From Chitinophaga niabensis (GTDB lineage Bacteria; Bacteroidota; Bacteroidia; Chitinophagales; Chitinophagaceae): 64,000 bases of DNA. The notes under the pieces were generated by a model, which saw only the letters and a list, made by a program, of their open reading frames with translations, had not been told where the DNA came from and did not search any database. Each line of letters starts with the position of its first letter. Position 1 is the stretch's first letter. The position numbers were made by a program, and so were the translations under genes. Shown piece by piece: positions 5,676 through 64,000 of this stretch. Where the stretch lies: the NCBI RefSeq assembly GCF_039545795.1, contig NZ_CP154260.1, positions 7,073,001 to 7,137,000 of the forward strand. Direction: 5' to 3'.

Positions 5676-5677
5676 TG
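5641..5677 (+). promoter_or_regulatory. OrfA/OrfB translational junction (possible -1 frameshift or coupled restart)
   Basis: AGGAGG at 5641-5646 lies 13 nt before GAAAAAG at 5660-5666. The OrfA stop TAG and the OrfB GTG overlap by one base (TAGTG). OrfB is in the -1 frame and stays open upstream past the A run, so either frameshifting or stop/restart coupling could make the transposase. Confidence 0.5.
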
Positions 5678-9824: not shown

Positions 9825-9880
9825 AAATTTTTCATGAAGATTATTATCTTTAATGCTTTATCAACAAGGAAGTAATCTAC

Positions 9881-11449
9881 ATGAAAAAATCATTATTGCT
9901 AATACTGGTATGCATTTTCGCAAGCCGGGTGGTGGTTGCACAGGAGCAGAGTTGCCCGGTGATCCCTATGCCAGACCAAGCCACTTTTGCCCAGGATCAT
10001 TTCTTATTGCAGGATAATACCCCTATCATCGCCAATGACCCTGCATTACAGGGCACTGCACATTCCCTTCAAAAATTATTACTGCGTTACACAGGTGTTC
10101 GCACTGCCATTCAGGATAAGAGTGAGCAGCCTGCCATTATTTTTCAGCTGGAGAAAGTAAGCAATCTGGAAGGGTATAACCTGCAGATGAGTAAAAAGGC
10201 GGTTGTGATCAGTGCAGGAAATGAAACCGGTCTTTTTTACGGTGCGATCTCTTTTTTACAGCTCGCAAGGAAGTTTCCCGGTAAACCCATTCCCTGCTGG
10301 AATATCAAGGATGCACCGCTGTACAAGTGGAGAGGTTTTATGTTGGATGAATCCCGCCAGTTCTTCGGAAAAGAAGAAGTGAAAAAGATCCTGGATGAAA
10401 TGGCTTTCTATAAACTGAACCGTTTCCACTGGCATCTTACAGATCAGCCGGGCTGGAGGATAGAGATCAAACAATATCCCCGTCTTGCCCTTGTGGGCGG
10501 CATCGGTAATTACCACGATTCCATTGCGCCTGCTCAATATTATACCCAGCAGGATGTAGCAGAGATTGTTGCTTATGCGGCTGCACTGCACATTTCCGTT
10601 ATTCCTGAAATTGATATGCCGGGCCATGCAACTGCCGCTAACAGGGCTTATCCGCAATTCAGTGGCGGTGGCTCTGTAAAACATCCTGAATTCACGTTCA
10701 ATCCCGGAAAGGAGGAAACATACCAGTACCTCAGTAATATCCTGAAGGAAGTGGATGTGCTCTTTCCTTCCCAGATGATCCATATTGGTGGTGATGAAGT
10801 AAGTTTTGGAAACGAGAAATGGAAAACAGATCCCGCTGTGCAGGACCTGATGAAACGCCAGAAATTGAACTCCCTCCTGGATGTAGAGCATTATTTCCTT
10901 AAAAGGATGGCCGATACGGTTGTGAAGCTAAACAACAGCATCCTGGGCTGGGATGAAGTAACTGCTTCTGCTTTGCCTCCCGGTAAAACCATCGTTTTCT
11001 GGTGGCGCCATGAAAAAAAGGATGAACTAAAGAATGCTTTGGAGAAAGGATATAAAGTAGTGCTTTGCCCGCGCCTTCCTTTCTATTTTGATTTTGTGCA
11101 GGATAGTGCCGCTACGGTTGGCCGCAGATGGCCGGGTAACCAGTTCAATGAACTGAAAAGCGTGTATGATTTTTCCCTGAATAGTTTACCCGATAACGTT
11201 AACAGGAACAGCCCGCTGATAGAAGGTATACAGGCTAATCTCTGGACGGAAACAATTGCTTCCAGGGAGCGGATGTATTACCTTACTTTCCCCAGGTTGA
11301 TTGCATTGGCAGAAGCTGCATGGACCCAACCGGCTAAGAAGGATTTTGTACAATTTCAAAAGCGGCTTAAAACAGCACTACCCTTGCTGAAAGCCCGGGG
11401 AATCTATTATTTTGAGAATTCTAAGCTAACACCGGAACCAGTAAAATAA
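9881..11449 (+). CDS. Secreted beta-N-acetylhexosaminidase, GH20
   Basis: 522 residues. A Sec signal ends near residue 20 (VVVAQ). The GH20b N-terminal domain spans about 26-140, and the catalytic barrel begins at YKWRGFMLDESRQFFG. Key motifs are HWHLTDQPGWRIEI, EIDMPGHA near 243-250 and the catalytic Asp-Glu pair in HIGGDEVSFGN (D305, E306). The C-terminal LWTETI and AEAAWTQP segments close the active site. It should release terminal GlcNAc or GalNAc from chitin oligomers or glycans by substrate-assisted catalysis in the periplasm. A near-consensus box TATCTTTA (9845-9852) lies upstream. Confidence 0.95.
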   Translation: MKKSLLLILVCIFASRVVVAQEQSCPVIPMPDQATFAQDHFLLQDNTPIIANDPALQGTAHSLQKLLLRYTGVRTAIQDKSEQPAIIFQLEKVSNLEGYNLQMSKKAVVISAGNETGLFYGAISFLQLARKFPGKPIPCWNIKDAPLYKWRGFMLDESRQFFGKEEVKKILDEMAFYKLNRFHWHLTDQPGWRIEIKQYPRLALVGGIGNYHDSIAPAQYYTQQDVAEIVAYAAALHISVIPEIDMPGHATAANRAYPQFSGGGSVKHPEFTFNPGKEETYQYLSNILKEVDVLFPSQMIHIGGDEVSFGNEKWKTDPAVQDLMKRQKLNSLLDVEHYFLKRMADTVVKLNNSILGWDEVTASALPPGKTIVFWWRHEKKDELKNALEKGYKVVLCPRLPFYFDFVQDSAATVGRRWPGNQFNELKSVYDFSLNSLPDNVNRNSPLIEGIQANLWTETIASRERMYYLTFPRLIALAEAAWTQPAKKDFVQFQKRLKTALPLLKARGIYYFENSKLTPEPVK

Positions 11450-49250: not shown

Positions 49251-49274
49251 AAAACATACCGATTGGTATGTTTT
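49251..49274. promoter_or_regulatory. TetR-type operator, perfect 10-bp arms
   Basis: AAAACATACC and GGTATGTTTT flank GATT. It is a perfect palindrome of the type bound by TetR/AcrR dimers. It lies between the promoter box of the b561-like operon and the tandem array that follows the tetR gene. Confidence 0.8.
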
Positions 49275-49283
49275 AGGGGAAAA

Positions 49284-49669
49284 AATTATTGAAGATGGGG
49301 AGGCTGGGCAATTTTTATTAGTGGCTGGTGAAGTGGAGCAATGCTTATTAGAGGCTGGTGAGGTAACGTTTCAATTCTTATCGAAGATGGTAAGGTGGGG
49401 CATTATTATTGGAGACTGGTAAGGTTTCAATTCTTATTGAAGGCAGTAATGTGAGGCAATTATTACTGGAGGCTGGTAAGGTTTCAATTCTTATCGAAGG
49501 GGGTAAGGTGGGATTCAATTCTTATTGAAGGCGGTAATGTGGGGCAATTCTTACTGGAGGCTGTAAGGTTTCAATTCTTATCGAAGGCGATAAGGTGTGG
49601 TTCAATTCTTACTGGAGACTTGTAAGGTGCCGTTTCTTATTGGAGGCCCGTGAGGTAACGTTTCAACTC
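49284..49669 (-). repeat. Degenerate tandem array derived from the tetR 3' end
   Basis: About 13 units of roughly 24-33 bp fill the space between the operator and the tetR stop codon and run into the coding end. The core on the plus strand is TTCTTATTGAAGGCGGTAAG with variants. The segment 49344-49377 matches the coding end plus stop of tetR (49636-49669) at 30 of 34 positions by hand count. Confidence 0.85.
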
Positions 49670-50224
49670 TTTCAGGTACACTGTGTAGCTATCCTTCCCG
49701 TATAGCTTTCCGAGATTCCGGATACCACCGTAGCCGGACATAATGAAGAACGCTGTTTGCGTAGCGTTCACGTCTTTCCTTATTTTACCGGTAGCCTTTC
49801 CGTTCTTTATAGTCAGCTCAATAGCCTCCTGCCATTGGGTGGCCAGCTTTGAAAGTGCTTTATTGAAAGTGCTGTTCAGGGGAGACATTTCTTCTATCAG
49901 GTTAATTGCCGGGCAGCCGTACTTAGGGATCAGGTGTGGATTTTCTATCAATAGTCCTTTCATCATCTTATAAATTTCCTGCACCGGATTTTCTGCTTTA
50001 GTGAGTGGTAATACCATGGCTGCATACATGGCCGGGTGCATCACCTCCTGGATCATGGCCAGTCCCATATCATCCTTATTCTTAAAATGATAAAAGAAAG
50101 CGCCTTTGGTAACTGCGGTTTTTATGAGAATATCATCTATGCTCGTGGCCTGGTAGCCGTTTGCATAGACCAGCTCAAATGCTTTTTGCAGGATTGTTAA
50201 CCGGGTTGCGGCTGCTTTGGACAT
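49637..50224 (-). CDS. TetR/AcrR-family transcriptional repressor
   Basis: 195 residues. The HTH is near residues 22-52 (GYQATSIDDILIKTAVTKGAFFYHFKNKDDM), followed by a C-terminal ligand-binding helical domain of the TetR_C type ending LKELKRYLTGLQ. The last nine codons and stop are the template-like unit of the tandem array downstream. A half-conserved operator just upstream of its ATG suggests autoregulation. It probably represses the b561-like/DUF3817 operon. The inducer is unknown. Confidence 0.93.
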   Translation of the reverse strand: MSKAAATRLTILQKAFELVYANGYQATSIDDILIKTAVTKGAFFYHFKNKDDMGLAMIQEVMHPAMYAAMVLPLTKAENPVQEIYKMMKGLLIENPHLIPKYGCPAINLIEEMSPLNSTFNKALSKLATQWQEAIELTIKNGKATGKIRKDVNATQTAFFIMSGYGGIRNLGKLYGKDSYTVYLKELKRYLTGLQ

Positions 50225-50225
50225 A

Positions 50226-50243
50226 AAGTACTAATTGGTATGT
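50226..50243. promoter_or_regulatory. Degenerate TetR operator at the tetR start
   Basis: The right arm AATTGGTATGT matches the perfect operator at 49251-49274. The left arm keeps only 4 of 7 positions. It lies 2-19 nt upstream of the tetR ATG, so weak autoregulation is plausible. Confidence 0.5.
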
Positions 50244-50275
50244 AATGACAAATGTATTAAAAATGAAAATAGGGA

Positions 50276-50304
50276 TTGGCTTACAGCGTGATAAATTATA
50301 TTTG
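50276..50304 (+). promoter_or_regulatory. Promoter of the AraC gene at 50322
   Basis: TTG at 50276-50278 and TATATTTG at 50297-50304 are 18 nt apart, a good Bacteroidota -33/-7 pair, with a leader of roughly 11 nt. Confidence 0.65.
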
Positions 50305-50321
50305 TTCCAACGCCAGCTAAT

Positions 50322-51161
50322 ATGTCCAAAAGAAATAAGATCCCCCTTCATTCACTCGGGAGCAATACCTCTGGTATTGAAGTGAGGCAGTTGACAGAAG
50401 TGGGAGAAGAAGAAACATCATTCATCAATCATATACACCGGGATGATCACTATATTTTCCTTTTCCATAAGAAAGGGCATGCCCGTATGATCATAGACTT
50501 CAAAGAAGTGGAAGCCAGTGGCACAGGTGTTTTCTGCATCCTTCCGGGGCAGGTGCATTATGGTATTTCCATGAAAGATACCCTCGCCTGGTTCCTGGCG
50601 GTGGACGGGGCTTTAGTTCAGGAGCAGTTCCGTACTGTTTTTGAAGAGCGCAGCGGTCTGCTGAAGATTTCTTCGGCAACAGCAGAGCGGCTGGAGGCTT
50701 GTTTCTCTGTGCTAAAGGGACTATGCCAGGAGCCGGACCAATTGATGGTGACGCGTTCCATGACGGATGTAGTGATCGGTTTGTTTGCAGGGATCTTTTC
50801 CGCCACGGAGGAAAGCAGGAATGATGCACATTCCAGGACAACCATTATCACCCGTCAGTTTAAAAGCCTGCTGAAAGGCGGCTTCAGAGAAATGAAACGC
50901 CCTTCCGCTTACGCGGAAGCATTGAATATCTCTCCCTCTTATTTAAATGAAGCCGTGAAGTTAACTACGGGTCTTCCCGTGAGCCACTGGATCCAGGAAG
51001 AAGTAATGATGGAGGCAAAACGCTTGTTGTTCTATACAGACAATACCGTTAAACAGATTGCAGATGATCTGGGCTTTGAAGACCATACTTATTTCAGCAG
51101 GGTGTTCAACCGGGCGGAGGGAACGCCACCGCTGGCCTTCCGGAAGAAATACCGCAAATAA
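50322..51161 (+). CDS. AraC-family transcriptional regulator with cupin domain
   Basis: 279 residues. An N-terminal cupin (FINHIHRDDHYIFLFHKKGHARMIIDF, then GTGVFCILPGQVHYGI) is followed by a linker and the AraC HTH pair with YAEALNISPSYLNEAVKLTTGLPVSHWI and VKQIADDLGFEDHTYFSRVFNRAEGTPPLAFRKKYRK. It is upstream of and co-directional with the siderophore-interacting protein gene, which it may control. It is divergent from tetR. Confidence 0.92.
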   Translation: MSKRNKIPLHSLGSNTSGIEVRQLTEVGEEETSFINHIHRDDHYIFLFHKKGHARMIIDFKEVEASGTGVFCILPGQVHYGISMKDTLAWFLAVDGALVQEQFRTVFEERSGLLKISSATAERLEACFSVLKGLCQEPDQLMVTRSMTDVVIGLFAGIFSATEESRNDAHSRTTIITRQFKSLLKGGFREMKRPSAYAEALNISPSYLNEAVKLTTGLPVSHWIQEEVMMEAKRLLFYTDNTVKQIADDLGFEDHTYFSRVFNRAEGTPPLAFRKKYRK

Positions 51162-51233
51162 TCCAATCTTTCCTTTTATTCCGCTATTGCCATGCCTTTC
51201 ATTTCTCGCGTGCTTTGCAGATAAATTAGCTAT

Positions 51234-51893
51234 ATGCCAAGAATGCCTAAATGGATGGGAGATGCAGTGGAGAGCCTTATGGCGTCCAAGTTCCTGACGG
51301 TAACAGTTACGGAGGTAGAATACTTAAGCCCGGAGGTGAAAAGGGTTTGTTTTACGGGAGATCTGTCCAGGGCGGATTTTGATGCAGGTTATGCAGTAAC
51401 CTTCAGGGTGAGTGCATTGGACCACAGGGACTATACACCTGGTGTATTTACAAAAGATACTTGTGAGATTATTTTTCATATCCACGGAAATGGCCCCGGA
51501 AGCGCTTTTGCAGATAGTTTGCAAGTGGGAGATACAACCAAGATGGTGATCCCCAGGGGCAGAAAGCTCTATCGCGAAGGCGTGGAGAATTTCTTCTTTG
51601 GAGATGAATCTTCTATTGGCACACTTAAAGCTATTATGCAGGAAGTACCTTGTACCGGTATTCTCGAATTGGATGAAGTTAATTTCCGTGTGCCGGAGAA
51701 ACTGGGCATGCAGGTAGATGTTGTGCGTAAAGGCAGCCATTCTTTTGACTTAGTTAATGAAAAGGCTGCTTATGTACTTACAGGGAATGGGGAGTCTATA
51801 CAACGGTTCCGGAAATTGTTGAAGGGAAAAGGGGTGAGCAGCAGCCAGATCATTACTAAGGCTTACTGGATACCGGGGAAGAAAGGACTGTAG
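51234..51893 (+). CDS. Siderophore-interacting (SIP) family flavoprotein
   Basis: 219 residues, cytoplasmic. An N-terminal FAD-binding barrel (LTVTVTEVEYLSPEVKRVCFTGD, then FRVSALDHRDYTPGVF) precedes a ferredoxin-reductase-like C-terminal domain (ENFFFGDESSIGTLKAIM, YVLTGNGESIQRFRKLLK, KAYWIPGKKGL). SIP/ViuB proteins reduce ferric siderophores or act as NAD(P)H:FAD reductases. There is no siderophore receptor gene nearby. The start ATG 51234 has no visible ribosome site. Confidence 0.88.
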   Translation: MPRMPKWMGDAVESLMASKFLTVTVTEVEYLSPEVKRVCFTGDLSRADFDAGYAVTFRVSALDHRDYTPGVFTKDTCEIIFHIHGNGPGSAFADSLQVGDTTKMVIPRGRKLYREGVENFFFGDESSIGTLKAIMQEVPCTGILELDEVNFRVPEKLGMQVDVVRKGSHSFDLVNEKAAYVLTGNGESIQRFRKLLKGKGVSSSQIITKAYWIPGKKGL

Positions 51894-51903
51894 GAATTTA
51901 CAT

Positions 51904-51933
51904 ATCCGGAAGCGTGGGGTAGCGCCTCCGGAT
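51904..51933. terminator. Hairpin between convergent SIP and GH32 genes
   Basis: ATCCGGA and TCCGGAT pair, with inner AGCG/GCGC pairing and a short loop. The flanks are only moderately T-rich. It probably terminates both genes. Confidence 0.65.
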
Positions 51934-51944
51934 TGATAGTTTTA

Positions 51945-53594
51945 TTACCAGGTGCTTTTCAGTTCATACACCGTCATCTTCTTTAACTGTGCATCGTCCC
52001 CTTTTGCAGACAGGGACAATGATTGCTTACTGGTATCAATGTTCACATTCACAGGCATGAACAGTAACCCGTCCGCCGTGAATAATTCCACTCCTATACG
52101 GTCTACATATAAGATCAGATCAAGTTTGCCATTCACCAATGGAGCGCTGGCATTTACACCATCGATCTGTAACTGTTGTTTGCTTACATCGTACACTACC
52201 GGGAGGCCATGAATATCCAGTGTTATTTCTTTGGCTTTCCCGGGTTCAATGGTTGTTCTGATCTCCAGCAATTCCGCATGGATATCGGAGAGGGGATTGG
52301 CGCCGCCTTCTTTCAATCGTGTTGGTTTCACTGTGAAGGTTTTCTCCCGGATGTTTTCCAGTTCCTTTACCGGTGTACGGGTTAATCTCAGGCCCTGTGC
52401 GGTCCGTACCAACTTTAATTCCAGGGGAATGCTCATGGCCTGGTTAAAGTTCATGTCTCCTTTATTGGTATGTGTTCTCCACCAGCCTATTTCTATGCGC
52501 CTGCTTTTTGGTTCGTTGTTGAAAGTCTGGGAAGCATAGAAGTCTCTGCCATGCTGACCATTCAGTCTTTCTATTTCCGGTTTGAAAGTGATGCCATCGA
52601 ATGTGCCGATGGCGTATTCACTATTTGCTGCTATGAGGATCCATTTCTTTTCAGCGGGATTGCCTTCTACGGGTAGTTCAAAGAACTCAGGGCATTCAAA
52701 GAGATAACGGTCATTGCCGATGCCGCCGAGGATGACGCTGGATTTTGTCCAGTTTTTCAGATCGGGCGAGGTGAGGAATTGCATGCTGTGTTGTTCTTTC
52801 TCTCTTTCCACATACAATACCATTACCCATTTTTTGGTGGGCTCATGCCAGATCACTTTGGGATCGCGGTTGTCTTTATTAATGCGGTGTACCACTGTGC
52901 GGTCCAGCTTTTTGAATGTTCTGCCATCGTTGCTCCAGGCAAGGCCCTGGCCCCAGGAGCCAGCGCCGGTGAAGAACATTACCATGGCGCCTTTGCCCAG
53001 GCCGCTGGTGTTGAAGCTGTCTACAATGGCACTGCCGCTGAACATGGTACCGAATTTATCAGGGTGGAGGGCATCGCCTACTTCTTTCCAGTGCAACATG
53101 TCTTTACTCACGGCATGCCCCCAGGTCATATTTCCCCATTCCCGGCCATATGGATTGTGCTGGAAGAAGAGGTGGTATTCTCCGTTGAAATATACCATGC
53201 CGTTGGGATCATTCGTCCAGCCGCGTTTGGGGGAGAAATGAAACTGGCCGCGCAGTTTTTCTTTGTAGAGGGGGAGGGCGTTTTTGTCTTCATCACTTTG
53301 CTGTACGGTGAAATTCGCTTTCCACTTGTCTACACGGAATTCAATGTCCTGGCCTTTCCAGGCGCTGATGTCCAGGTAGGCGAGCCAGTCTGGTTCTCCT
53401 TCTGCCAGTTCTATGTTAAGGTAACGTTCCTTCTCTCCGTCTATCCAGAGTTCTACATTATGTTTGGCTGCCCCGTTCTTTACCGGTAATACCAGGTATT
53501 TTTGAGAAGCTTTGAATACAGTGCTGAATTCCTGCGCGTGTGCGGTTTGGAAAAGTGTTGAGAGGCATAATAATGCTGTCCAAAAGATCTTCAT
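51945..53594 (-). CDS. Secreted fructan hydrolase, GH32
   Basis: 549 residues from the ATG at 53594 with a Sec signal ending near TAHAQ. After an N-terminal beta domain of about 110 residues comes the GH32 propeller: WTNDPNGM with the nucleophile Asp at about 129, FRDP-equivalent NRDPKVIWHE, and the acid/base Glu in ECPEFF. A C-terminal beta-sandwich domain ends the protein. It should act as an exo-fructanase or invertase in the periplasm, releasing fructose for the kinase and porter encoded upstream. It is separated from susD by the tandem array. Confidence 0.95.
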   Translation of the reverse strand: MKIFWTALLCLSTLFQTAHAQEFSTVFKASQKYLVLPVKNGAAKHNVELWIDGEKERYLNIELAEGEPDWLAYLDISAWKGQDIEFRVDKWKANFTVQQSDEDKNALPLYKEKLRGQFHFSPKRGWTNDPNGMVYFNGEYHLFFQHNPYGREWGNMTWGHAVSKDMLHWKEVGDALHPDKFGTMFSGSAIVDSFNTSGLGKGAMVMFFTGAGSWGQGLAWSNDGRTFKKLDRTVVHRINKDNRDPKVIWHEPTKKWVMVLYVEREKEQHSMQFLTSPDLKNWTKSSVILGGIGNDRYLFECPEFFELPVEGNPAEKKWILIAANSEYAIGTFDGITFKPEIERLNGQHGRDFYASQTFNNEPKSRRIEIGWWRTHTNKGDMNFNQAMSIPLELKLVRTAQGLRLTRTPVKELENIREKTFTVKPTRLKEGGANPLSDIHAELLEIRTTIEPGKAKEITLDIHGLPVVYDVSKQQLQIDGVNASAPLVNGKLDLILYVDRIGVELFTADGLLFMPVNVNIDTSKQSLSLSAKGDDAQLKKMTVYELKSTW

Positions 53595-53603
53595 GATGTA
53601 CAA

Positions 53604-53877
53604 TTTAATAAATACCGGTGTGATGGTTTTACTTTTTTACTGATAGTAATAATGCCGGCGTGATCATTTTTTTTGCTGATATGGATAATTGCGTGATCAT
53701 TCTGCTTTTTTGCTGATAGTGATTGTAATAGTACCGGCGTGATCATTTTTTATACTGATATAGATAATTGCGTGATCATTCTGTTTTTTTGCCGATAACG
53801 ATTGTGATAATACCGGCGTGATCATTTTTTGCCGATAGTGGTCATCACCATCCTGCATTTTGCTGATAGAGCCCGCG
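53604..53877 (-). repeat. Degenerate tandem array derived from the fructan susD 3' end
   Basis: Six degenerate units lie between the GH32 start and the susD stop. They alternate between about 36 and 43 bp, so a 79-bp higher-order unit appears twice. Shared landmarks are GTGATCATT and TTTTTTGCTGATA. The unit at 53693-53719 matches the susD coding end at 53841-53869 (CATCCTGCATTTTGCTGATA versus CATTCTGCTTTTTTGCTGAT). Confidence 0.82.
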
Positions 53878-55563
53878 GCTGTAATTGATCTGGTTTAAAG
53901 GTATTGGCAGGAATTCATCCCTGTTCTTTTTAAATAAAGCATCGTTGAGGTGGGCGGACCTTGTTTTTTCTACGGTGAAATATTTGTTGATGTATTCTGC
54001 TGCAATGCCCCAGCGTACAAGATCAAAGAAATGATAGCCTTCCGTAGCAAATTCCAGGCGGCGTTCCCAACGGAGGGCCTGCCTTGCAAAAGCCTGCGTC
54101 CAGGTGCAATTAACGCCGGGCTGGTAAGTGGCTATTTTGTAATTAGCAGAAGGTGTACCATCCGGTTGTTTCAGAAGGGCAGTACTATTTCCGGAACGGG
54201 TGCGCAGATCGTTGATCAGCGATAAGGCTTCATTTTGACGGCCCAGTTCTATCAGTGCTTCTGCTTTGAATAACAATACATCCGCATAACGGATCACATC
54301 CCAGTTCTTGGAGCTGGACATGAATGGCGGGATCTTCTGGAAAGAAGGATCATCCGGTGCTACGGCTTCTTTCAGACTGGCAAATGCATCATATACTTCC
54401 GGTGCACGTGCCCATGAACGCAGGAAGATGTAATTGCTTTTGTATTTGAAAGGTTTGCCGGGAATAGCCACTGTATGGTTCAGCCGGGGATCAAAAGAAC
54501 TGGTCATATAATCACCTGATGCTGCCACATCCACATTATTATACGTATCAAACATAGGCAGCCCGTTCGCATCTGTTTTGAATGCATTGATCAGATCATG
54601 ACTGGGAACATGAAACCCGCAGCAGCCAAATTCTTTGTTCATCGGGTAGTTCAGTGCATGACCATAATCCAGCCTGCCCTTGGGTGTACCATCATCCTTT
54701 GAATACTGAATAGCGAATACAGACTCTTTGCTGTTCTCAAACGGTGTGAGGAAGTTGTTGCCATAGTCTGCATTCGGCATGTATTTGCCGGAGATGATGA
54801 TATCATCGCAGAGTTTATTCACTTCTGTGAGCAGGGTGGTGCTGATACTGGTTACATTATTTGTTTCATCCTGTATGTAAGCCTGGTATAATAGTGTTTT
54901 AGCGAGATACGCTTTTGCAGAGAGTTGATTGGCGCGTCCTACTTCAGGTTGTGTTGGTGGCAGATCTGCTACAGCCGCACGGAAGTCGTCTGCTATTTTT
55001 GTCCAGAGGGCGTCATTGGAATACGTCTTGTTAGAGATGGTGTCATAAACATTCTTTGCTGCATTCTCATCAATATACGGAACGTATTTGAAGAGGATCT
55101 TTAACAGGAAATAGAAGTGCCCTCTCAGAAAGCGTAACTCTCCCTGGCGTTTCTTTTTATCCGGAAAAGCGGCTTCATCAATAGCATTCACCCGGCGTAA
55201 GGCATCATTAGCGCGTGCGATACCCACATATAAACGGAACCACAGTTCATCCGTTAATCCATTGTCTGCCCTGTTGAGGGAGAATGTTTCCAATAGATGG
55301 AACTCTGTAATGTCTCCGGGGCCATCGCCACCTTTATAAGCATCTCCGCCACGCACACTGCCATAAGGCCAGAGGTTGGTGTAGGGAGAAGTATAGTGAT
55401 CATTGCCGAGAGAAGAGTAAGCCGCTATCACGAGTTTGTTTACATTCTCCGGTGTGTTCAAATCGTTGTCTGATACAACACCCTGTGGTGTTTCATCCAG
55501 GATCCGTTTGCAGGATGCCGTGATCAGCAATACGGAGAAGATGAGTGATATGATCTTTTTCAT
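53845..55563 (-). CDS. SusD-family fructan-binding lipoprotein
   Basis: 572 residues from the ATG at 55563; an ATG at 55572 adds three residues. The lipobox ITASC (Cys near 18) is followed by KRILDETPQGVVSD, a standard SusD opening. LRFLRGHFYFLLKILFKYVPYIDE and ALRWERRLEFATEGYHFFDLVRWGIA are the family helices. The C-terminal LNQINYSRGLYQQNAGW ends in codons that recur, degraded, in the downstream array. It pairs with the SusC gene 12 nt upstream. Confidence 0.94.
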   Translation of the reverse strand: MKKIISLIFSVLLITASCKRILDETPQGVVSDNDLNTPENVNKLVIAAYSSLGNDHYTSPYTNLWPYGSVRGGDAYKGGDGPGDITEFHLLETFSLNRADNGLTDELWFRLYVGIARANDALRRVNAIDEAAFPDKKKRQGELRFLRGHFYFLLKILFKYVPYIDENAAKNVYDTISNKTYSNDALWTKIADDFRAAVADLPPTQPEVGRANQLSAKAYLAKTLLYQAYIQDETNNVTSISTTLLTEVNKLCDDIIISGKYMPNADYGNNFLTPFENSKESVFAIQYSKDDGTPKGRLDYGHALNYPMNKEFGCCGFHVPSHDLINAFKTDANGLPMFDTYNNVDVAASGDYMTSSFDPRLNHTVAIPGKPFKYKSNYIFLRSWARAPEVYDAFASLKEAVAPDDPSFQKIPPFMSSSKNWDVIRYADVLLFKAEALIELGRQNEALSLINDLRTRSGNSTALLKQPDGTPSANYKIATYQPGVNCTWTQAFARQALRWERRLEFATEGYHFFDLVRWGIAAEYINKYFTVEKTRSAHLNDALFKKNRDEFLPIPLNQINYSRGLYQQNAGW

Positions 55564-55575
55564 GGAATGCATTAT

Positions 55576-58500
55576 TTAGAATGATACATTGAAACCAGCG
55601 GTTACGATAGCAGGAATGGGGAACGATGTGCCTGGTGCTTCCGGATCGGCAGCTGTAAACCCTTTGCTTTTAATGGTGATCAGGTTGCTGCCTTGCAGGA
55701 ATACCCGGGCAGTTTGTACACCCACGTTGCGCAAAGCGTTCTTGAGGTTATAGCCTAACTGGATATTCCGGAGTTTCATGTAAGAGCCGTTCTCAAAGAA
55801 ATAAGTAGAAGAGCGCCCCTCGTTATTCCTGTTCACCAATGTGAGTGCAGGGATGGTAGAACCTGTGTTCGTGGATGTCCATGCACTGAGGGTTCTGTCT
55901 CCCCAGTTGCTACCTACCCAAAGGGAAGAAAAGTCTGTGAAGGTTTTGAAGGTGTTGTTCACCTCAATGCCCTGTACCCCTTGCAGGAAAAAGCTGAGAT
56001 CAAAATTCTTGTAGGACAGTTCAACATTTAATCCATACAGGAAATCCGGGTTGCCATCTGCAATGAAATCACGGTCTTTATCGTCTATTATCTTATCTCC
56101 GTTGAGGTCGCGGTAGCGGATCCTTCCGAGCCCTTTACCCACCTGTGCAGCAGATTCATCCAGTTCTTTTTGTGTAGTGAATAAACCATCTGCGATGTAA
56201 CCGAAAGATGAATTGATAGAACGGCCCAGGATGGTTTTATCTGTTCCGTTACCGGGGTAAGAAGTTAATACCTGTTTGGGCAGGTAAGTTACTTTGTTCT
56301 TGTAAGTAGAGAAATTACCGGTAACGGTAAAGCGCAGGTCTTTGGTAATATTACCATTGTAAGAAAGTAATACTTCCAACCCTTTGTTTTGCATGGAAGC
56401 GCCATTGAACCAATAGTTACCACCTTCTCCCTGTACGGCCAGGTAACCGGGGCTGATCAATATATCAGATGTTTTTTTGATGAAGTAATCTACAGAGCCG
56501 GTGAGGCGGTTTTCCAATAAACCGAAGTCCAGGCCGAAGTTCGCTTCTTCCGTTCCTTCCCATCTTAATGAATCATTTCCCTGCTGGATACGTGTAAAAC
56601 CTGATGGTAACTGTCCTGAGCCACTGCCACCAATATCATAAGCACTGCCATTGTCGAATCCCCAGGTGGGATCTACGCCATAGATGGAAGCATACAGGGC
56701 GTAGGTAGCGTTGTTGGCAATTTCCTGGTTGCCGGATTTACCCCAGCCGTATCTGAGTTTCAGGTCAGAGATGGTGTGTTGTTTTTTCATGAAGGCTTCT
56801 TCACTGATACGCCATCCCAGGGAGAAAGCAGGGAATGTACCATATCGGTATTCTTTACCGAAACGGGATGAGCCGTCCCTGCGAAGGGTAGCAGAAGCCA
56901 AATAGCGGTCTGCATACGCATAGTTGATCTTGCCGAAGTAAGATAACAGCGCATAACCAGAACCACCGCCGCCATTGTCTTTATTGGAAGAACCGGCATC
57001 GAGGTAAGCGTAATCGATGTTTTCCAGCGCATATCCCTGCCTGGATGCGTAGAACGACTGGTTCATGTATTTGATCTGCTCATGACCCACGAGGAATTCA
57101 AAGCGGTGTTTATCCAGTTCCAGTTTGTAGTTGAGGGTGTTCTGCCAGAGCCAGTTGCCATCATATCCCTGGTTAGTGGATGTTTGATTGGAAGGATCGG
57201 AAAGAAAACCTGACACGTAGGATTTACGAAGGGTGCGTTGGTAGTTACCATTGTAGTCAATACCCACACTGCTCCTGAAATGAAGATCAGGAAGGATATC
57301 TACATCAGCATACACGTTACCGAATACACGGTAAAAGTGGTTGAGGTTTTGCTTATTGTCTTCAATGAGGCGAACAGGATTGTGGCGGTCTGTCATACCA
57401 GGTGCGGGGCCACCCCATCCTCCATCAACGGTATGTACAGGTACAACAGGTTGTTGTACCAATGACGTGAACAATACATCTCCGATAGGAATGAGGGTAT
57501 TGCGGATATAGGAGAAGTTTAGGTTCTCACCTATCTTCAATTTGTTTTTAAAGAAGCTGTAATCTGAATTAAGGCGGGCCGTGATCTTTTTATTGTTGGA
57601 TGCTTTCACGATACCTTTGTTATCATAATACCCCAGCGAAAACAAAGCGCTTCCTCTTTCGCTGCCACTGCTTACAGATACATTGTATTGCTGGATGATG
57701 GCTGTTTGCTCAATCTGATCGTACCAGTATGTATCAGCGGGGCGCATGGTTTTAGCGCCATCGATAAACTCAGGGTAGATGATCTTATTGAGTACGGGAT
57801 TATTGTAATCGCCGTTCCAGTCGTATTGATAGATCTGGTTGTTGTTGGGATTAGTTCTGTCGTTCACAGCGGCCTGCCAGTAAGCTCTGCCGCGGCCGTC
57901 TGCATTCAGTGTTTTTTGTTTGGTGGTGTAATCCTGTGTGGAAAGGGAAGCGTCAAAATCTACGCGGGTAAAACCTTTGCGTGCTTTTTTTGTGGTAACA
58001 ATGATCACTCCATTTGCTGCACGGGAACCATAGATGGTAGCGGAGGAGGCATCTTTTAATACCTGTATGGATGCAATATCATCCTGGTTTAATTCCTGTA
58101 ATCCTCGTTTGGTGGGAACACCATCAATTACATAGAGGGGATCATTATTGCCGAGTGTACCAATTCCCCTGATGCGAACAGTGGCACCTCCTGAAGGAGA
58201 GCCATCAGTGGTGATGAATACGCCGGGCACTCTTCCCTGCAGGGCTTTTACTGGGTTGCCAAGTGGCACATCCCGAATGGCTTCCACATCTACAACTGAT
58301 ACGGCGCCGGTGAGGTCTGCTTTCTTTTGGGCCTGGTAACCGGTAACCACTACTTCATTGAGGTTGCTGGCATCGCGGTCCATTTCAACGATGATATTTC
58401 CGCTGGCAGGTACTTTGGCAGTGAATACTTTCATGCCTATATAGGAGAAAGTAAGGGTTTCATTTGTGGATGAGAGGATGGAGAATTTGCCTGTGCTGTC

Positions 58501-58653
58501 TGTGATCACTGCGGTAGAAGGACTTTGTACGCTAACACCGGGGAGCGGGATGCCGGTGTTTTTTTCTGTGACGGTGCCCGTCACTTTTTTTTGTTGCGCA
58601 GAACTGCTGAGCACTATCAGCAGAAGTGCCATCATTGTAATCCTGTATTTCAT
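55576..58653 (-). CDS. SusC-family TonB-dependent fructan transporter
   Basis: 1025 residues. A Sec signal ends near LSSSAQ, followed by a carboxypeptidase-like domain (VTGTVTEKNTGIPLPGVSVQSP), TonB box/plug (LNEVVVTGYQAQKKADLTGAVSV, IQVLKDASSATIYGSRAANGVIIVTT) and a long barrel ending AGFNVSF. There is no STN domain, consistent with control by the hybrid two-component sensor rather than by sigma/anti-sigma. The gene follows the fructokinase gene by 14 nt, in the order porter-kinase-susC-susD-GH32. Confidence 0.95.
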   Translation of the reverse strand: MKYRITMMALLLIVLSSSAQQKKVTGTVTEKNTGIPLPGVSVQSPSTAVITDSTGKFSILSSTNETLTFSYIGMKVFTAKVPASGNIIVEMDRDASNLNEVVVTGYQAQKKADLTGAVSVVDVEAIRDVPLGNPVKALQGRVPGVFITTDGSPSGGATVRIRGIGTLGNNDPLYVIDGVPTKRGLQELNQDDIASIQVLKDASSATIYGSRAANGVIIVTTKKARKGFTRVDFDASLSTQDYTTKQKTLNADGRGRAYWQAAVNDRTNPNNNQIYQYDWNGDYNNPVLNKIIYPEFIDGAKTMRPADTYWYDQIEQTAIIQQYNVSVSSGSERGSALFSLGYYDNKGIVKASNNKKITARLNSDYSFFKNKLKIGENLNFSYIRNTLIPIGDVLFTSLVQQPVVPVHTVDGGWGGPAPGMTDRHNPVRLIEDNKQNLNHFYRVFGNVYADVDILPDLHFRSSVGIDYNGNYQRTLRKSYVSGFLSDPSNQTSTNQGYDGNWLWQNTLNYKLELDKHRFEFLVGHEQIKYMNQSFYASRQGYALENIDYAYLDAGSSNKDNGGGGSGYALLSYFGKINYAYADRYLASATLRRDGSSRFGKEYRYGTFPAFSLGWRISEEAFMKKQHTISDLKLRYGWGKSGNQEIANNATYALYASIYGVDPTWGFDNGSAYDIGGSGSGQLPSGFTRIQQGNDSLRWEGTEEANFGLDFGLLENRLTGSVDYFIKKTSDILISPGYLAVQGEGGNYWFNGASMQNKGLEVLLSYNGNITKDLRFTVTGNFSTYKNKVTYLPKQVLTSYPGNGTDKTILGRSINSSFGYIADGLFTTQKELDESAAQVGKGLGRIRYRDLNGDKIIDDKDRDFIADGNPDFLYGLNVELSYKNFDLSFFLQGVQGIEVNNTFKTFTDFSSLWVGSNWGDRTLSAWTSTNTGSTIPALTLVNRNNEGRSSTYFFENGSYMKLRNIQLGYNLKNALRNVGVQTARVFLQGSNLITIKSKGFTAADPEAPGTSFPIPAIVTAGFNVSF

Positions 58654-58667
58654 AATACTACGTGGTT

Positions 58668-59546
58668 TTAATGTGAAATGGAATCCACTTCTTTGATATC
58701 ATAATCCGGCATTGCGCCTTTGTAGGTTGTGATGGTTGCTGCCAACCGGTTGGCGAAATCGAGCATTGCTTCAGGTGCTGCTTTGTCTATTGTTTTGGAG
58801 ATGATGGCGGCGAGGAAAGCATCTCCGCTGCCCACAGTGTCTGTTACGGGTACTTTATAACCCGGATGAGTATACGATTGGCCATTCAGGTGTAATTGCG
58901 CACCATTTGCTCCCATGGTAACGATCATATGGCGGATCCCGAATTTATCCTGCAGGAGGGATACGCGGTCTGCTGTATTATTATAACTGCCATACCAGCT
59001 GGTCACCAGTTCCAGTTCATCTATATTCAGTTTAAGGATATCGGCATATTGTAAAAGCGATTCAATGAGGGAGCGGCTGAAATGTGGTGTGCGCAGATTG
59101 ATGTCCAGCACTTTGGTATGTGCTAATTCCAGCAACTGGAAAAGTGTGTTGCGGGAAGTGGCATGGCGGGCACTCAGACTGCCAAACACAAAATACTCCG
59201 CCTGTTTCACCAATGCCTCCGTGGTATCGTCTGCAACAATATGGTCCCATGCAGAAGGGGAAACAATGTCGTACGACATATCTCCGTTGGGATGTTGCGT
59301 TGCTTTTACGATACCTGTTGGTACTGCTTCATCTATTTGAATATATTTCGTGTTCAGGCCTTTGTTTTGCAATACTTTCATCAGTTCATCCCCTCTTTCG
59401 TCTTTACCTATGCGGCTGATCATGGCAGGGCTTTTTCCCAGCCTGTGCAGCTGATAAGCAACATTCATGGGTGCTCCGCCAGGTTGTGGGCCGGAAGGGA
59501 GCAGGTCCCATAATATTTCTCCATAACAAACGATACCGTGGTTCAT
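58668..59546 (-). CDS. PfkB-family fructokinase
   Basis: 292 residues from the ATG at 59546; longer in-frame starts would run into the porter gene. PfkB signatures are CYGEILWDLLPSGPQPGGAPMNVAYQLHRLG at the N-terminus and TVGSGDAFLAAIIS with the catalytic Asp and anion hole at about residues 247-260. In this context it phosphorylates fructose to fructose-6-phosphate after import. It lies 10 nt after the porter gene. Confidence 0.93.
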   Translation of the reverse strand: MNHGIVCYGEILWDLLPSGPQPGGAPMNVAYQLHRLGKSPAMISRIGKDERGDELMKVLQNKGLNTKYIQIDEAVPTGIVKATQHPNGDMSYDIVSPSAWDHIVADDTTEALVKQAEYFVFGSLSARHATSRNTLFQLLELAHTKVLDINLRTPHFSRSLIESLLQYADILKLNIDELELVTSWYGSYNNTADRVSLLQDKFGIRHMIVTMGANGAQLHLNGQSYTHPGYKVPVTDTVGSGDAFLAAIISKTIDKAAPEAMLDFANRLAATITTYKGAMPDYDIKEVDSISH

Positions 59547-59556
59547 GAGCTTAGTA

Positions 59557-60876
59557 TTAATGCATGATAAGTGTGCCTTCCAGCTGTTCCAGTGATTTGC
59601 CTTTTGTTTCGGGCATGATCTTCCATACAAACAGCAATTGCAATACCATCATTACACAGAAGAAGAGAAAAGTGTTGCCGCCACCGAGGCTTTCTGTCAA
59701 CATGGGAAAAATGAAAGCGATCACTGCAGCCATTATCCAATGCGTCATACTACCCAGCGTCTGACCTTTTGCCCTTACCTGGTTGGGGAAGATCTCAGAG
59801 ATGAACACCCAGATCACAGCCCCCTGGGAAAAAGCAAAGAACGCAATATATACCAGCAGGAATATGGTGACCATAAATCCATTGAACTCATTCAGGTAAA
59901 AGGCACGGGATACCAGGCCCAGGGTAATGATCAGTCCAAGGGAACCGATCAGCATCAAAGTACGTCTGCCTACCCTATCAATGAAGCTAAGTGCCAGCAG
60001 GGTGAAAAGGAAGTTCACGAAGCCGATCCCCACACTGGATAACAGAGAGGATTGTTTACCAAGCCCCGTCATTTCAAAGATCCGGGGCGCGTAATAGATG
60101 ATGGCATTGATCCCGGATACCTGGTTAAAAACGGCAAAGGTAATAGCCAGGAAAACGGGGAAGCGGTTCTTCCGGGAGAAAAGGGCTTCGCTTTGGTGCT
60201 CACTTTGTACATCATTGCGGATGGCATACAGTTCCTCTTTATAACCGCTGGGATTGATCACTTTTAAAGTTTCTGTGGCTTCTGCTATCCGCCCTTTTCT
60301 CAGGATCAGCCAGCGGGGACTTTCCGGAACAAAACGTAATAATACCAGGAACAGGAGGGAAGGGAAGGCCTGTACGCCCATCATCCAGCGCCAGGAGGTG
60401 TCGCTTTCCTGGCCTATCAGGTAATTGGAAAGATAGGAGATGAGGATGCCCAGAACAATATTGAACTGGAAAAGTGCTACCAGTTTTCCTCTTGAGGCGG
60501 CAGGCGAGATCTCAGAGATATAAATGGGGGCTGTTACGGAAGATGCGCCCACACCAATACCTCCCAGGAAACGGAAAAGCAGGAAAACCGGCCAGCCGGT
60601 TGCAAGTGCAGTACCTAATGAAGAAAAGAGATATAGGATAGCAATCAGGATCAGTGTTTTCTTTCTGCCCAGTTTTTCAGAAGGCAGGCTGCCCAGCATG
60701 GAACCGATAATAGTTCCTATCAGGGCAATGGAAACGGTGAGGCCATGTTCAAAGCCGTCCAGTTGCCAGTATTGTTGAATAGATTGTTCAGCGCCGGAAA
60801 TAACTGCCGTATCAAAGCCGAATAGAAAACCACCAAGGGCTACCGTAATACTCCAGAAGAAAACTTTGTTTTTCAT
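59557..60876 (-). CDS. MFS sugar porter (fructose importer)
   Basis: 439 residues from the ATG at 60876, with twelve hydrophobic helices. Sugar-porter motifs: GGFLFGFDTAVISGAEQ in helix 1, KLGRKKTL after helix 2, PESPRWL after helix 6, DRVGRRTLML, and PETKGKSLEQLE at the C-terminus. It is a proton-coupled monosaccharide importer in the inner membrane. Its place between the sensor and the kinase suggests fructose. It is divergent from the sensor gene. Confidence 0.94.
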   Translation of the reverse strand: MKNKVFFWSITVALGGFLFGFDTAVISGAEQSIQQYWQLDGFEHGLTVSIALIGTIIGSMLGSLPSEKLGRKKTLILIAILYLFSSLGTALATGWPVFLLFRFLGGIGVGASSVTAPIYISEISPAASRGKLVALFQFNIVLGILISYLSNYLIGQESDTSWRWMMGVQAFPSLLFLVLLRFVPESPRWLILRKGRIAEATETLKVINPSGYKEELYAIRNDVQSEHQSEALFSRKNRFPVFLAITFAVFNQVSGINAIIYYAPRIFEMTGLGKQSSLLSSVGIGFVNFLFTLLALSFIDRVGRRTLMLIGSLGLIITLGLVSRAFYLNEFNGFMVTIFLLVYIAFFAFSQGAVIWVFISEIFPNQVRAKGQTLGSMTHWIMAAVIAFIFPMLTESLGGGNTFLFFCVMMVLQLLFVWKIMPETKGKSLEQLEGTLIMH

Positions 60877-61155
60877 ATAACGTGTTGTGGGAATTTCTAC
60901 CAACTTACGCGCCTTTTAAGGGGAAAACCTGCTGCCCTGTTTCAATCACTTCTAAAATCGTATCAATTTCCCATTATGCTGTATTTCAATTCCTTAGGGC
61001 CGATGTTTTTTTGAAGGTTTTTGATTTTGTATCCCCTATTTTCATTTTTGGATCAAATATCCGGGGATCGGGCTACGTTATGCTACAGGATAAGGAAAGA
61101 AAATTCTACATTGAGGGTATAATTCCACTGATCTTCCAAATAAACACGTGAAGAA
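60877..61155. promoter_or_regulatory. Divergent promoter region of the fructan PUL
   Basis: 279 nt between the porter and the hybrid sensor. I found no perfect TAnnTTTG box on either strand and no clear direct repeat. The activator site for the AraC output domain is expected here. Confidence 0.4.
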
Positions 61156-63879
61156 ATGAGAACGCTGGTAATATTAACCTTTCTGGCCGGCATTTTCGCA
61201 GGCTGCCGGCCTGCGCCTGCTCCCCGTCATTTCAGGATCGGCTTCTCCCAATGCGGGGATGCAGACCATTGGAGAAAATCCATGCTGGCAGAAATGCAAC
61301 GGGAACTTTCTTTCCACCCGGGTATGGAGCTGATCTATAAACAGGCGGATGATAACAGCAGTGTACAGGTAAAGCAGGTAAAGGAATTACTGGCGGAGGG
61401 CATCGACCTGCTCATTATTTCTCCCAATGAGGCCAGTCCGCTTACACCTGTAGTGGAAGAGGTATATAATAAAGGTATCCCGGTGATTGTGGTGGACAGG
61501 AAAATTGCTTCTACGAAATACACCAATTATATAGGGGCAGATAATTACGAGATAGGAAAGATAGCAGGGGAATATGTGGCAGGTTTGCTGAAAGGGAAAG
61601 GAAATGTAATAGAAGTGGTAGGCCTTCCGGCATCTTCACCGGCTATTGAAAGAAGGCGGGGTTTCCAGGATGGGTTGAGCAAATACCCGGAAGTGCAGAT
61701 CCTGGAGCAGGTGCATGGGGATTGGGTAAAACAGAAATCCGAAGCGGCTTTAAATAAGATCAGCACCAGCCTGCCATTGGCAGACCTGATCTTTGCGCAT
61801 AACGATGTGATGGCATTGGGAGCAAGGGAGGCTTGTTTGAAAGCCGGTGTGCAACATACCCGGATCATTGGAGTGGATGCTTTATCCGGTAAAGGGGGTG
61901 GATTGGAAATGGTGTCTGGTGGTTTGCTCACAGCATCTTTATTATATCCAACCGGAGGAACGGAAGCGATCCGTAATGCGCTGCATATCTTACAACATCA
62001 GCCACTTCCCAAAGAAACCTTCCTGCAAACGCTGGTGGTGGATTCCACCAATGTGCGGATGATGGTTTTGCAATCAGATAAGATCCTGAACCAGCAGAAG
62101 GATATAGAACTGCAGCAGCAGATGCTGGCAGAACAGAAAAGAGTGTATAACAGCCAGCGGACGATGTTGTATATACTGGGCATCACTTTGGCGTTTGCGC
62201 TGATCTTTGCCAGCCTGTTATGGTACTCCAGGAACCTGAACCAGAAGATCAATAAAAAACTGGCCCTGCAGAATGATGAGATCAGCCGGCAGAGTAAACA
62301 ACTCATGGAAATGAGTGCGGAAGCGGCCAAAGCCAATGAAGCGCGCATCGATTTCTTCACCAATATTTCCCATGAGATCAGAACACCACTTACACTGATC
62401 ATTGGGCCGCTGGATGAAATGCTGCAGCATTCAAAACTACAGGGGGCAGACAGGCAGCAGCTTTCGCTGGTGCGCAGGAATGCCAACCGCCTCTTGCACC
62501 TGGTGAATCAATTGATTGATTTCCGTAAACTGGAATTCAGTAAAATGCAGGTGAAGGCATCAGAGAATGACCTGGTGCAGTTCAGTAATGAGATCATTGA
62601 GATCTTTCAGCAGATAGCCCGGAAAAGAAGGATCGATTGCCGGTTGGTGACTTCGGAAAGAAGACTGCCGGTTTGGATGGATACGGGCATGATGGATAAA
62701 GTGTTGTTCAATCTCTTGTCCAACGCCTTTAAGTTTACAACGGACAATGGTTCCATCACGGTTATCCTGGAAAAGAAAGAGGGGCAGGCTTTGATAAAGG
62801 TGCAGGATACAGGTATTGGTATGTCTCCGGAAGTAATGCAGCATGCTTTTGATATCTTTTACCAGGGCGATGTAGATAATCACAAAGGCTCGGGGTTAGG
62901 GCTGGCGCTTTGTAAAGAGCTGGTGCAATTGCATCATGGTACTATTACTGCCAGCAGTGAAAAGCATAAAGGCACAGTATTCACGGTGGCGCTGCCTTTA
63001 GGGAAAGAGCATTTCCAGCTGGAGGAACTGGCTATTGCCGCTACCAAAGAAGAAGAACAGGAATTCTATATGGCGGACCTTATGCCTGTAACCGATCTGC
63101 CGGAAGAGCAGAAGGCGCAGGAAAAAAAAGGCGTACTGCTTTTGGTTGAAGATAATCCCGAGATGCGGAGCTTTATCAAATACCGTTTGTCCAATGAATA
63201 CGAGGTGCTGGAAGCGGAGAACGGACAGCAGGGATTGCAGCTGGCTTTTGAATACCTGCCGGATGGTATTATCTGTGATGTGATGATGCCGGTAAAAGAC
63301 GGGCATGCTTTGCTGAAGGAGATCAAAACCGATGTGCGCACGGCGCATATTCCTGTTATCTTATTAACGGCCCGTACTTCTGCAGAACAGCAGGTGGAAG
63401 GATTGCAGAATAAAGCGGATGCTTACATCACCAAACCCTTCGACTTTAAAATACTGCGGCATACCCTGAATAGTTTGCTGGTGAACAGGAACCAGCTAAA
63501 GGAACACTTCACGGCGGATATTCCGGCAGGATTGAGAGGTGCTATTTCTAAGAAGGCTGATCTTCGTTTTGTATCCGAATTCACTTCTATTGTAGAAAGT
63601 AATATCGGGAATGAAGAGTTCTCTATTGAGAATATCTACAAGCAGATGAATATTTCCAAAGTGCAGTTATACCGGAAAGTAAAAGCGCTGATCGGCACGA
63701 ATATCAATGAGTACATCCTAAATACGCGGTTGCAGAAGGCACGGTATTTCCTGCAGCATGAAGATATTTCAGTGGCAGAGGTAGCGTATAGAACAGGATT
63801 TTCCTCGCCAGCTTATTTTTCAACAGTGTTCAAATATAAGCTGGGAGTTTCTCCTACTGCGTTCAAAGGGAAGCGCTAG
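61156..63879 (+). CDS. Hybrid two-component sensor/regulator with periplasmic sugar-binding domain
   Basis: 907 residues. An N-terminal signal with lipobox-like IFAGC is followed by a LacI-type periplasmic binding domain (about 25-300: IGFSQCGDADHWRKSML, LLIISPNEASPL, VVDRKIASTKYTNYIGADN). A membrane helix (MLYILGITLAFALIFASLLWY, about 329-350), HisKA with phosphorylated His in FFTNISHEIRTPL (H406), HATPase_c, REC with Asp in CDVMMPVKDG (D708), and a C-terminal AraC HTH (IENIYKQMNISKVQLYRKVKALIG; VAEVAYRTGFSSPAYFSTVFK) follow. The layout is that of the B. thetaiotaomicron fructose sensor BT1754. It should bind fructose and activate this PUL. Confidence 0.95.
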   Translation: MRTLVILTFLAGIFAGCRPAPAPRHFRIGFSQCGDADHWRKSMLAEMQRELSFHPGMELIYKQADDNSSVQVKQVKELLAEGIDLLIISPNEASPLTPVVEEVYNKGIPVIVVDRKIASTKYTNYIGADNYEIGKIAGEYVAGLLKGKGNVIEVVGLPASSPAIERRRGFQDGLSKYPEVQILEQVHGDWVKQKSEAALNKISTSLPLADLIFAHNDVMALGAREACLKAGVQHTRIIGVDALSGKGGGLEMVSGGLLTASLLYPTGGTEAIRNALHILQHQPLPKETFLQTLVVDSTNVRMMVLQSDKILNQQKDIELQQQMLAEQKRVYNSQRTMLYILGITLAFALIFASLLWYSRNLNQKINKKLALQNDEISRQSKQLMEMSAEAAKANEARIDFFTNISHEIRTPLTLIIGPLDEMLQHSKLQGADRQQLSLVRRNANRLLHLVNQLIDFRKLEFSKMQVKASENDLVQFSNEIIEIFQQIARKRRIDCRLVTSERRLPVWMDTGMMDKVLFNLLSNAFKFTTDNGSITVILEKKEGQALIKVQDTGIGMSPEVMQHAFDIFYQGDVDNHKGSGLGLALCKELVQLHHGTITASSEKHKGTVFTVALPLGKEHFQLEELAIAATKEEEQEFYMADLMPVTDLPEEQKAQEKKGVLLLVEDNPEMRSFIKYRLSNEYEVLEAENGQQGLQLAFEYLPDGIICDVMMPVKDGHALLKEIKTDVRTAHIPVILLTARTSAEQQVEGLQNKADAYITKPFDFKILRHTLNSLLVNRNQLKEHFTADIPAGLRGAISKKADLRFVSEFTSIVESNIGNEEFSIENIYKQMNISKVQLYRKVKALIGTNINEYILNTRLQKARYFLQHEDISVAEVAYRTGFSSPAYFSTVFKYKLGVSPTAFKGKR

Positions 63880-64000
63880 TTATTTCTTCGCCGCGGTCAA
63901 AGGGAGAGCGTTGTGCCTTTCTCTTACTGCGTTCAAAAGGGAACGCTGTACCTTTCTCCTACTGTATTTAAAGGAAAGCGTTGAATTATTTCTTCGCTGC
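63848..64000 (+). repeat. 35-bp tandem array starting inside the hybrid sensor 3' end
   Basis: The units begin with TTTCT at 63848 (the gene's last ten codons plus stop), 63883, 63918, 63953 and 63989. Spacings are 35, 35, 35 and 36 bp. The third unit repeats TACTGCGTTCAAA of the coding end almost exactly. The array is cut by the window edge. Confidence 0.9.

Follow-up and report, generated by a model that had tools for sequence, protein, structure and literature searches.

Why should three unrelated genes on one bacterial chromosome each be followed by a tandem array that resembles the gene's own 3′ coding end? The genes, a tetR-family gene, a susD-family gene and a gene for a hybrid sensor kinase, lie in a 64,000-nt stretch of Chitinophaga niabensis DNA (hereafter the window; bases 7073001-7137000 of a 7.2-Mb single-contig genome, coded G000 in our genome comparisons). 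The original prediction, made from the letters of this stretch, was that some mechanism copies gene 3′ ends locally. The observation is confirmed, and is stronger than the three genes had indicated; a special 3′-end copying mechanism is not supported. Our preferred reading, to which we give a probability of roughly 60%, is that short tandem duplications recur, are filtered by selection to the gaps 3′ of genes, and then undergo minisatellite-like expansion and decay.

Three arrays in the window

The genes and arrays are as follows, with array limits taken from Tandem Repeats Finder (TRF) unless stated otherwise.

49637..50224, minus strand: tetR-family gene (Pfam TetR_N, TetR_C_13), whose 3′ coding end founds the first array
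49284..49664, minus strand: tetR array, degenerate, roughly 12-13 units, each ~28 nt long, and higher-order repeats of 57/88 nt; takes in the stop and final codons of tetR (TRF and unit alignment; left end by eye)
53845..55572, minus strand: susD-family gene (Pfam SusD_RagB), with a 3′ coding end similar to the second array's unit
53604..53870, minus strand: susD array, degenerate, ~39/79-nt units, between susD and a GH32 gene (TRF 53641-53830; ends by eye)
61156..63879, plus strand: hybrid sensor kinase with an AraC-type C-terminus (Pfam HisKA, HATPase_c, Response_reg, HTH_18), whose 3′ coding end founds the third array
63848..63985, plus strand: sensor array, ~35-nt units, filling the gap up to the convergent gene (TRF 63848-63964; end by eye)

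TRF detects degenerate arrays at all three genes, and the arrays are real. Those of tetR and susD lie at lower coordinates than their genes because both genes are on the minus strand. At tetR, whose stop is at 49637, the periods found by TRF across 49362-49664 are 28, 29, 56, 57 and 88 nt, and by eye the array reaches ~49284. At susD (stop at 53845), TRF reports 2.4 copies of 79 nt at 53641-53830, with sub-units of 33-37 nt. At the sensor gene (stop at 63879), it reports 3.4 copies of 35 nt at 63848-63964; by eye, this array continues to ~63985, directly before the convergent gene, and it opens with a copy of that gene's last 12 nt (TTATTTCTTCGC, at 63880 and 63986). The original description of the arrays as lying just after the stop codon is slightly off: they adjoin the stop, but the first unit starts within the coding end.

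We compared the last 60 nt of the coding sequence (CDS) plus 12 nt with the next 300 nt. For 856 3′ ends of the same genome, this longer self-copy score has a median of 15 and a 97.5th percentile of 23. The tetR and sensor genes each score 52, so that the unit is clearly the gene's own 3′ end, as had been claimed for all three genes; for susD the match between unit and coding end is weak, since the score of 26 is close to the background 97.5th percentile. The three arrays share no sequence, also as predicted. Elsewhere in its own genome, nothing matches the tetR array significantly (next best E 0.115), and when 33 array entries (31 distinct, two being re-cut window arrays) were matched against each other at E 0.01, only a pair of tRNA-Val arrays matched.

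A palindrome, AACATACCGATTGGTATGTT, lies at window positions 49253-49272, between the tetR array and the next gene, and is present with two changes in a related genome, G021. This palindrome is likely a TetR operator, and the array would therefore have grown between tetR and its probable target promoter.

Frequency and position of arrays in the genome

We sampled 60 stretches of 20 kb from the window's own genome, 59 of which are spread along the chromosome and do not touch the window (1.18 Mb). Loci are named by stretch, with the position within the stretch after a colon (e.g. L077:12333); L043 and L153 are loci of G021 and of a further genome, G040, respectively. In a gene-centred test using our own gene caller, each CDS end (its final 30 nt plus 10 nt) was compared with the following 300 nt, with a mirrored comparison at starts and a cut-off score of at least 34; genes <240 nt and ends <320 nt from a stretch border were excluded. 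Across the window and the 60 stretches, 13 of 917 3′ ends reached the cut-off, compared with 0/901 5′ ends, 0/837 and 0/825 inner controls, and no shuffles. Two of the 13 lie in the stretch adjoining the window, one of these two being the window's own sensor gene; susD, with a score of 26, falls below the cut-off in these shorter-query counts and is not included. In the 59 stretches alone, a self-copy lies just downstream of 10/856 3′ ends and 0/840 5′ ends, so the process seen in the window recurs genome-wide. Behind roughly 1% of the genes in G000 lies an array with units that take in the gene's own final codons, and by extrapolation there would be several dozen such loci in the genome. The carrier genes have no Pfam domain in common (13 examined): they include TetR, SusD, hybrid sensor, GntR, ApbE, thiolase, GH95, GH16, radical SAM with UPF0004, polysaccharide deacetylase and others.

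TRF gave a consistent picture. Of the 26 arrays with a period of at least 24 outside CDS in the 59 stretches, 12 span a stop codon (886 stops) and none spans a start codon (893 starts; Fisher p = 2e-4), which is the enrichment at stop codons that the original prediction implied; a looser count, with a tolerance of 6 nt, places 15 arrays at stops. Arrays occupy 13/103 convergent gaps, 9/538 co-directional gaps and 1/127 divergent gaps (odds ratio for convergent versus co-directional 8.5, p = 3e-6), where the divergent case is a weak 24-nt × 2.1 repeat, and the tRNA-Val arrays of L094 account for one of the convergent and one of the co-directional gaps. Array-free gaps have medians of 61 bp (convergent), 74 bp (co-directional) and 194 bp (divergent). 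For units of 30, 50 and 80 nt placed at random in such gaps, the expected share spanning a stop is 34, 49 and 63% in the convergent case and, with start-spanning forbidden, 25, 40 and 57% in the co-directional case. Since the observed 12/26 fits random placement, a position 3′ of a gene is enough to explain the tie to the coding end without further targeting, which argues against a mechanism specific for copying gene 3′ ends. Both stops of a convergent pair have been taken into arrays at L066 and L069:14786/15008, consistent with plain tandem duplication. The unit length is a multiple of three in 5 of the 12 stop-spanning arrays, near chance.

Other repeats were encountered in the same stretches. 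Two ~79-nt arrays at L094:7993-8305 and 9843-10762, the tRNA-Val pair mentioned above, match each other at 99% and look like decayed tRNA-Val gene copies; ARAGORN calls four tRNA-Val genes there, two of them above the Rfam cut-off, and by eye the first place holds a single tRNA in G021 and in a second relative, G068. A 1.3-kb gap without a called gene holds two arrays, with units of 111 and 55/109 nt (L026:4746-5174 and 5434-5705). A 276-nt repeat at L084:4960-7295 (8.5 copies) lies within one very long reading frame and is probably a repeat protein. Tandem repeats of ~22 nt, often 2 × 11, form a separate class with locus-specific sequence (L064:3195-3322, L066:16262-16326, L078:15673-15716, L086:3890-3940, L088:9844-9898 and L099:14016-14067); their spacing would fit direct-repeat sites of LytTR-type regulators.

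Gain, loss and decay in related species

We compared array-bearing gene ends between species, using one genome per species. G068 is a close relative of G000 (88-93% DNA identity over syntenic stretches, third-position divergence 0.20) and G021 is more distant. For 15 array-bearing genes, we found 15 counterparts in G068 and 13 in G021, although for the L066 gene the matches in both are only ~75% identical and orthology is uncertain. By the longer self-copy score, 12 of the 13 G021 ends are at background, including one with just 159 nt downstream and another, L030:13003, where by eye a downstream segment is repeated; the exception is the ApbE gene of L025:13257, which has its own duplication with other breakpoints. 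In G068, 4/15 ends score at least 30, and shorter or eroded repeats are seen by eye at several others.

Individual sites illustrate these differences. The tetR site is single-copy in G021 (L043; TetR 86% identical), the susD site has two short copies by eye in G068 and no TRF array in C. cymbidii, and the sensor site in G068 holds a different array. The C. cymbidii locus was matched with the sensor protein (82% identity in the best segment) in a search reaching close relatives only. A deacetylase gene (L069:18333) has about six units in G000; in both G068 and G021 its end is single-copy, with a gap of 0 to the convergent gene; the L095 gene end is likewise single-copy and array-free in a relative. 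In G000 a GntR-family gene (L087) has three 66-nt units; its G021 counterpart has none, and the one in G068 shows by eye a degenerate array of ~34 nt, though its score of 18 is background. Homologues of this gene carry separate arrays in G040 (61% identical, score 139) and G070 (43% identical, score 62), and the remaining 27 of 30 GntR homologue loci score at most 25. Among TetR and deacetylase homologues, 1/19 and 1/12 scored loci, respectively, have an array, each time that of G000 itself. Copy number and unit thus differ between related species. Because the same gene ends in the two relatives are often single-copy or carry a different array, we conclude that arrays are recent and have been founded repeatedly.

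Two further convergent gaps differ between G000 and G068. At window positions 51893-51944 the gap is 51 bp in G000 and 406 bp in G068, with a repeated ~100-nt stretch by eye; this is the reverse case, an expansion in the relative only. The gap at L025:19133-19479 contains a pair of long inverted repeats that resemble hairpins and have many T runs, and by eye only the first is present in G068.

All stages of array growth are found, from two near-identical copies (L077:12333, 3% divergent) through clean arrays of three to five copies (L087, L066) to old degenerate arrays. Divergence between copies within arrays ranges from ~3% to >20%. Units of young arrays (L066, L077:12333, L025:13257 and L087) are only 3-5% apart, so that hypermutation of the copies is probably not needed, although at L069:18333 the units differ by eye from the gene end at ~9 of 41 positions while G068 and G021 have no array there. 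Substitutions among copies in 15 arrays (C>T 51, G>A 49, A>G 43, T>C 41) are not adenine-specific. Breakpoints placed automatically have direct repeats of 0-12 nt, against a mean of 0.7 for random pairs, but the junction scores are poor (17-26 of 32) and the placement proved too noisy for use; by eye, the repeats are 9 nt and A-rich at L025:777, 5 nt at L076:3659, and ~0-2 nt at L077:12333, L087 and L069:18333. Loss of the Pol I 5′ exonuclease is a known cause of duplications; we rejected it as the cause here, since the domain was found in 41/41 genomes searched, G000 included.

With the same cut-off of at least 34, G021 has 1/125 scoring 3′ ends, and G003, G012 and G048 together have 2/124, both in G012. 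Nine other members of the genus gave 0/310, yet TRF found one array at a stop and four in convergent gaps in their 460 kb, and further loci of the genus gave 2/88. The C. cymbidii locus (0/12), five other Bacteroidota (0/30) and E. coli K-12 (0/151) gave no scoring 3′ ends, the samples from outside the genus being small. The cut-off was reached by no 5′ end in all these sets. The clade of G000 gave 13/1105, against 0/310 for other members of the genus (p = 0.08), but a higher rate in the clade was not supported once 2/88 ends scored outside it. The phenomenon is present in Chitinophaga at large.

Origin and meaning of the arrays

The comparison of G000 with G068 bears on where length changes may be tolerated. 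Across 183 comparable CDS (300-4500 nt, both ends anchored, 210 kb) there are 55 short indels and none of at least 24 nt. Of 172 gaps, those changed in length by at least 20 number 12/21 convergent, 19/127 co-directional and 1/24 divergent, in stretches partly picked for arrays, with not all changes checked as arrays and with 6 of the 19 co-directional changes being inserts of at least 600 bp. After dropping 32 gaps with a large change and 38 outside size limits, 102 gaps were left for substitution analysis. Substitutions per site are 0.16 in convergent gaps (404 sites), 0.066 and 0.062 in the 3′ and 5′ halves of co-directional gaps, and 0.046 in divergent gaps; small indels per kb are 22, 10, 5.5 and 5.2, respectively. 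Convergent gaps look close to neutral, since their 0.16 substitutions per site compares with 0.20 at third codon positions.

The sequences show that the arrays are tandem and contain gene ends, that they were founded recently and more than once, and that they have expanded, with higher-order periods, and decayed. The preferred reading joins these features as follows. Short tandem duplications of ~28-130 bp would keep arising across the genome, founded most likely by replication slippage or template switching. Judging from the distribution of arrays, selection would remove duplications within CDS and around promoters and starts, and those 3′ of genes would survive. As 3′ gaps are short (61 bp in the median array-free convergent case), units of this length would often reach into the coding end. 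A duplication across the stop would leave the gene-proximal copy and its stop intact and the protein unchanged, and only the 3′ untranslated region (UTR) would grow; tolerance would be confined almost entirely to positions 3′ of genes because the gene-proximal copy retains the stop codon. From two copies on, slippage or unequal exchange would expand and partly homogenise the array, and point mutation and deletion would erode it; here the outcome is what we see. An array of a gene's own 3′ end would therefore be a by-product of where duplications are tolerated.

Several points weigh against this reading. The 5′ deficit of long duplications exceeds that of small indels, so either selection on long duplications is stronger or the mutation rate differs. 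No mutation event was seen directly, and founding breakpoints are generally not resolvable. The separate GntR-family arrays in G000, G040 and G070, with a degenerate one by eye in G068, hint at local proneness. Lastly, predicted RNA folding is stronger than in shuffles at 4/18 arrays (z −2.1 to −3.3). With z of −2 or lower at just these four, RNA structure was rejected as a theme common to the arrays.

The main rival reading is that 3′ ends are a mutational hot spot: template switching would be set off there by transcription that converges or terminates, or by terminator hairpins at which replication stalls, and duplications would be founded at 3′ ends more often than elsewhere, beyond what selection explains. 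We consider this possible but doubtful. The excess of arrays in convergent over co-directional gaps and the separate arrays at GntR-family homologues in distant species would fit, and at L153 and L076:3659 the unit seems by eye to end within a terminator-like hairpin. However, substitution rates show the weakest constraint in convergent gaps too, the stop-spanning share can be explained without targeting, and at least two arrays (susD-GH32 and L077:12333) lie between genes that by eye seem co-transcribed, and not at a transcript end. Nor is the suggestion of copying at transcription termini supported: at several loci (L025:13257, L030, L022 and L076:3659, seen by eye and uncounted) the array is followed by a terminator-like hairpin, which probably places it within the message and not at the transcript end. 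At the loci inspected, arrays do lie between the stop and a terminator or the next promoter, and together with the folding at four arrays this might suggest selection for a 3′ UTR function such as insulating convergent genes, message stability or termination. We regard such a function as unlikely, as the arrays have no common sequence, unit length or structure, their carrier genes are functionally unrelated, their copies have diverged by ~3% to >20%, and the corresponding ends in G021 and G068 mostly have no array or another one.

The original prediction also raised a reverse-transcription step or a shared enzyme. Reverse transcriptase copying mRNA 3′ ends beside the gene, as in or akin to a diversity-generating retroelement, would account for units that hold the sense 3′ end and stop, and G000 and G068 have one reverse-transcriptase match each. 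Yet G021 and G012 carry arrays (1 and 2 scoring ends) and have no RVT_1 match, on which ground we rejected the enzyme as the engine, and G007 has 11 RVT_1 matches and 0/54 scoring 3′ ends. Given also that substitutions among copies are not adenine-specific and that units include sequence of the opposing convergent gene, an RNA-templated origin is very improbable. Insertion of a dispersed repeat or mobile element family at gene ends is refuted for this sample, both by the lack of cross-matches among the 31 distinct arrays outside the one tRNA pair and by relatives whose site is a single gene-end copy without an array (tetR, L069:18333 and L095).

Among known systems, the arrays most resemble bacterial minisatellites, or variable number tandem repeats: TRF finds head-to-tail, imperfect units of tens of bases with higher-order periods, and copy number differs between close relatives, here between species (G000 versus G068 and G021). 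Minisatellite arrays are usually described locus by locus, whereas the Chitinophaga arrays lie systematically at gene 3′ ends, include coding ends in their units and would, by extrapolation, amount to several dozen in each genome. MIRU of mycobacteria and REP/BIME of enterobacteria are short intergenic repeats often found near stop codons or 3′ of genes, but they are dispersed families with shared sequence, unlike the locus-specific units described here. Diversity-generating retroelements differ in the two respects noted above, the reverse transcriptase missing from some array-bearing genomes and the substitution pattern. In the general model for close direct repeats, these are founded by short tandem duplication and then decay; founding and decay are the same in Chitinophaga, which differs by strong 3′-end placement and by re-founding at related genes. 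Among the matches listed in a search of open-licence papers, none is by title about arrays at bacterial stop codons. In lake Planctomycetota, intergenic tandem repeats are reported to underlie many noncoding deletions, which were attributed to polymerase slippage (PMC9426551). Those repeats are likewise intergenic and tandem; they belong to another phylum, and the main text of that paper does not mention stop codons.

The arrays provide a counted, comparative case of bacterial 3′ intergenic growth, in which founding, expansion and decay are visible across related species. They make it possible to test whether short tandem duplications have an even distribution at origin, with selection as the later filter, or form mainly at the ends of transcription. 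It is possible, though we judge it improbable, that Chitinophaga 3′ ends, mainly convergent ones, repeatedly found duplications from coding ends as a hot spot tied to termination or converging transcription; if so, the genus would be a natural recorder of termination-linked duplication and a steady source of new 3′ UTRs. For annotation, the arrays are a warning that seemingly novel intergenic sequence may be decayed copies of a neighbouring gene's end.

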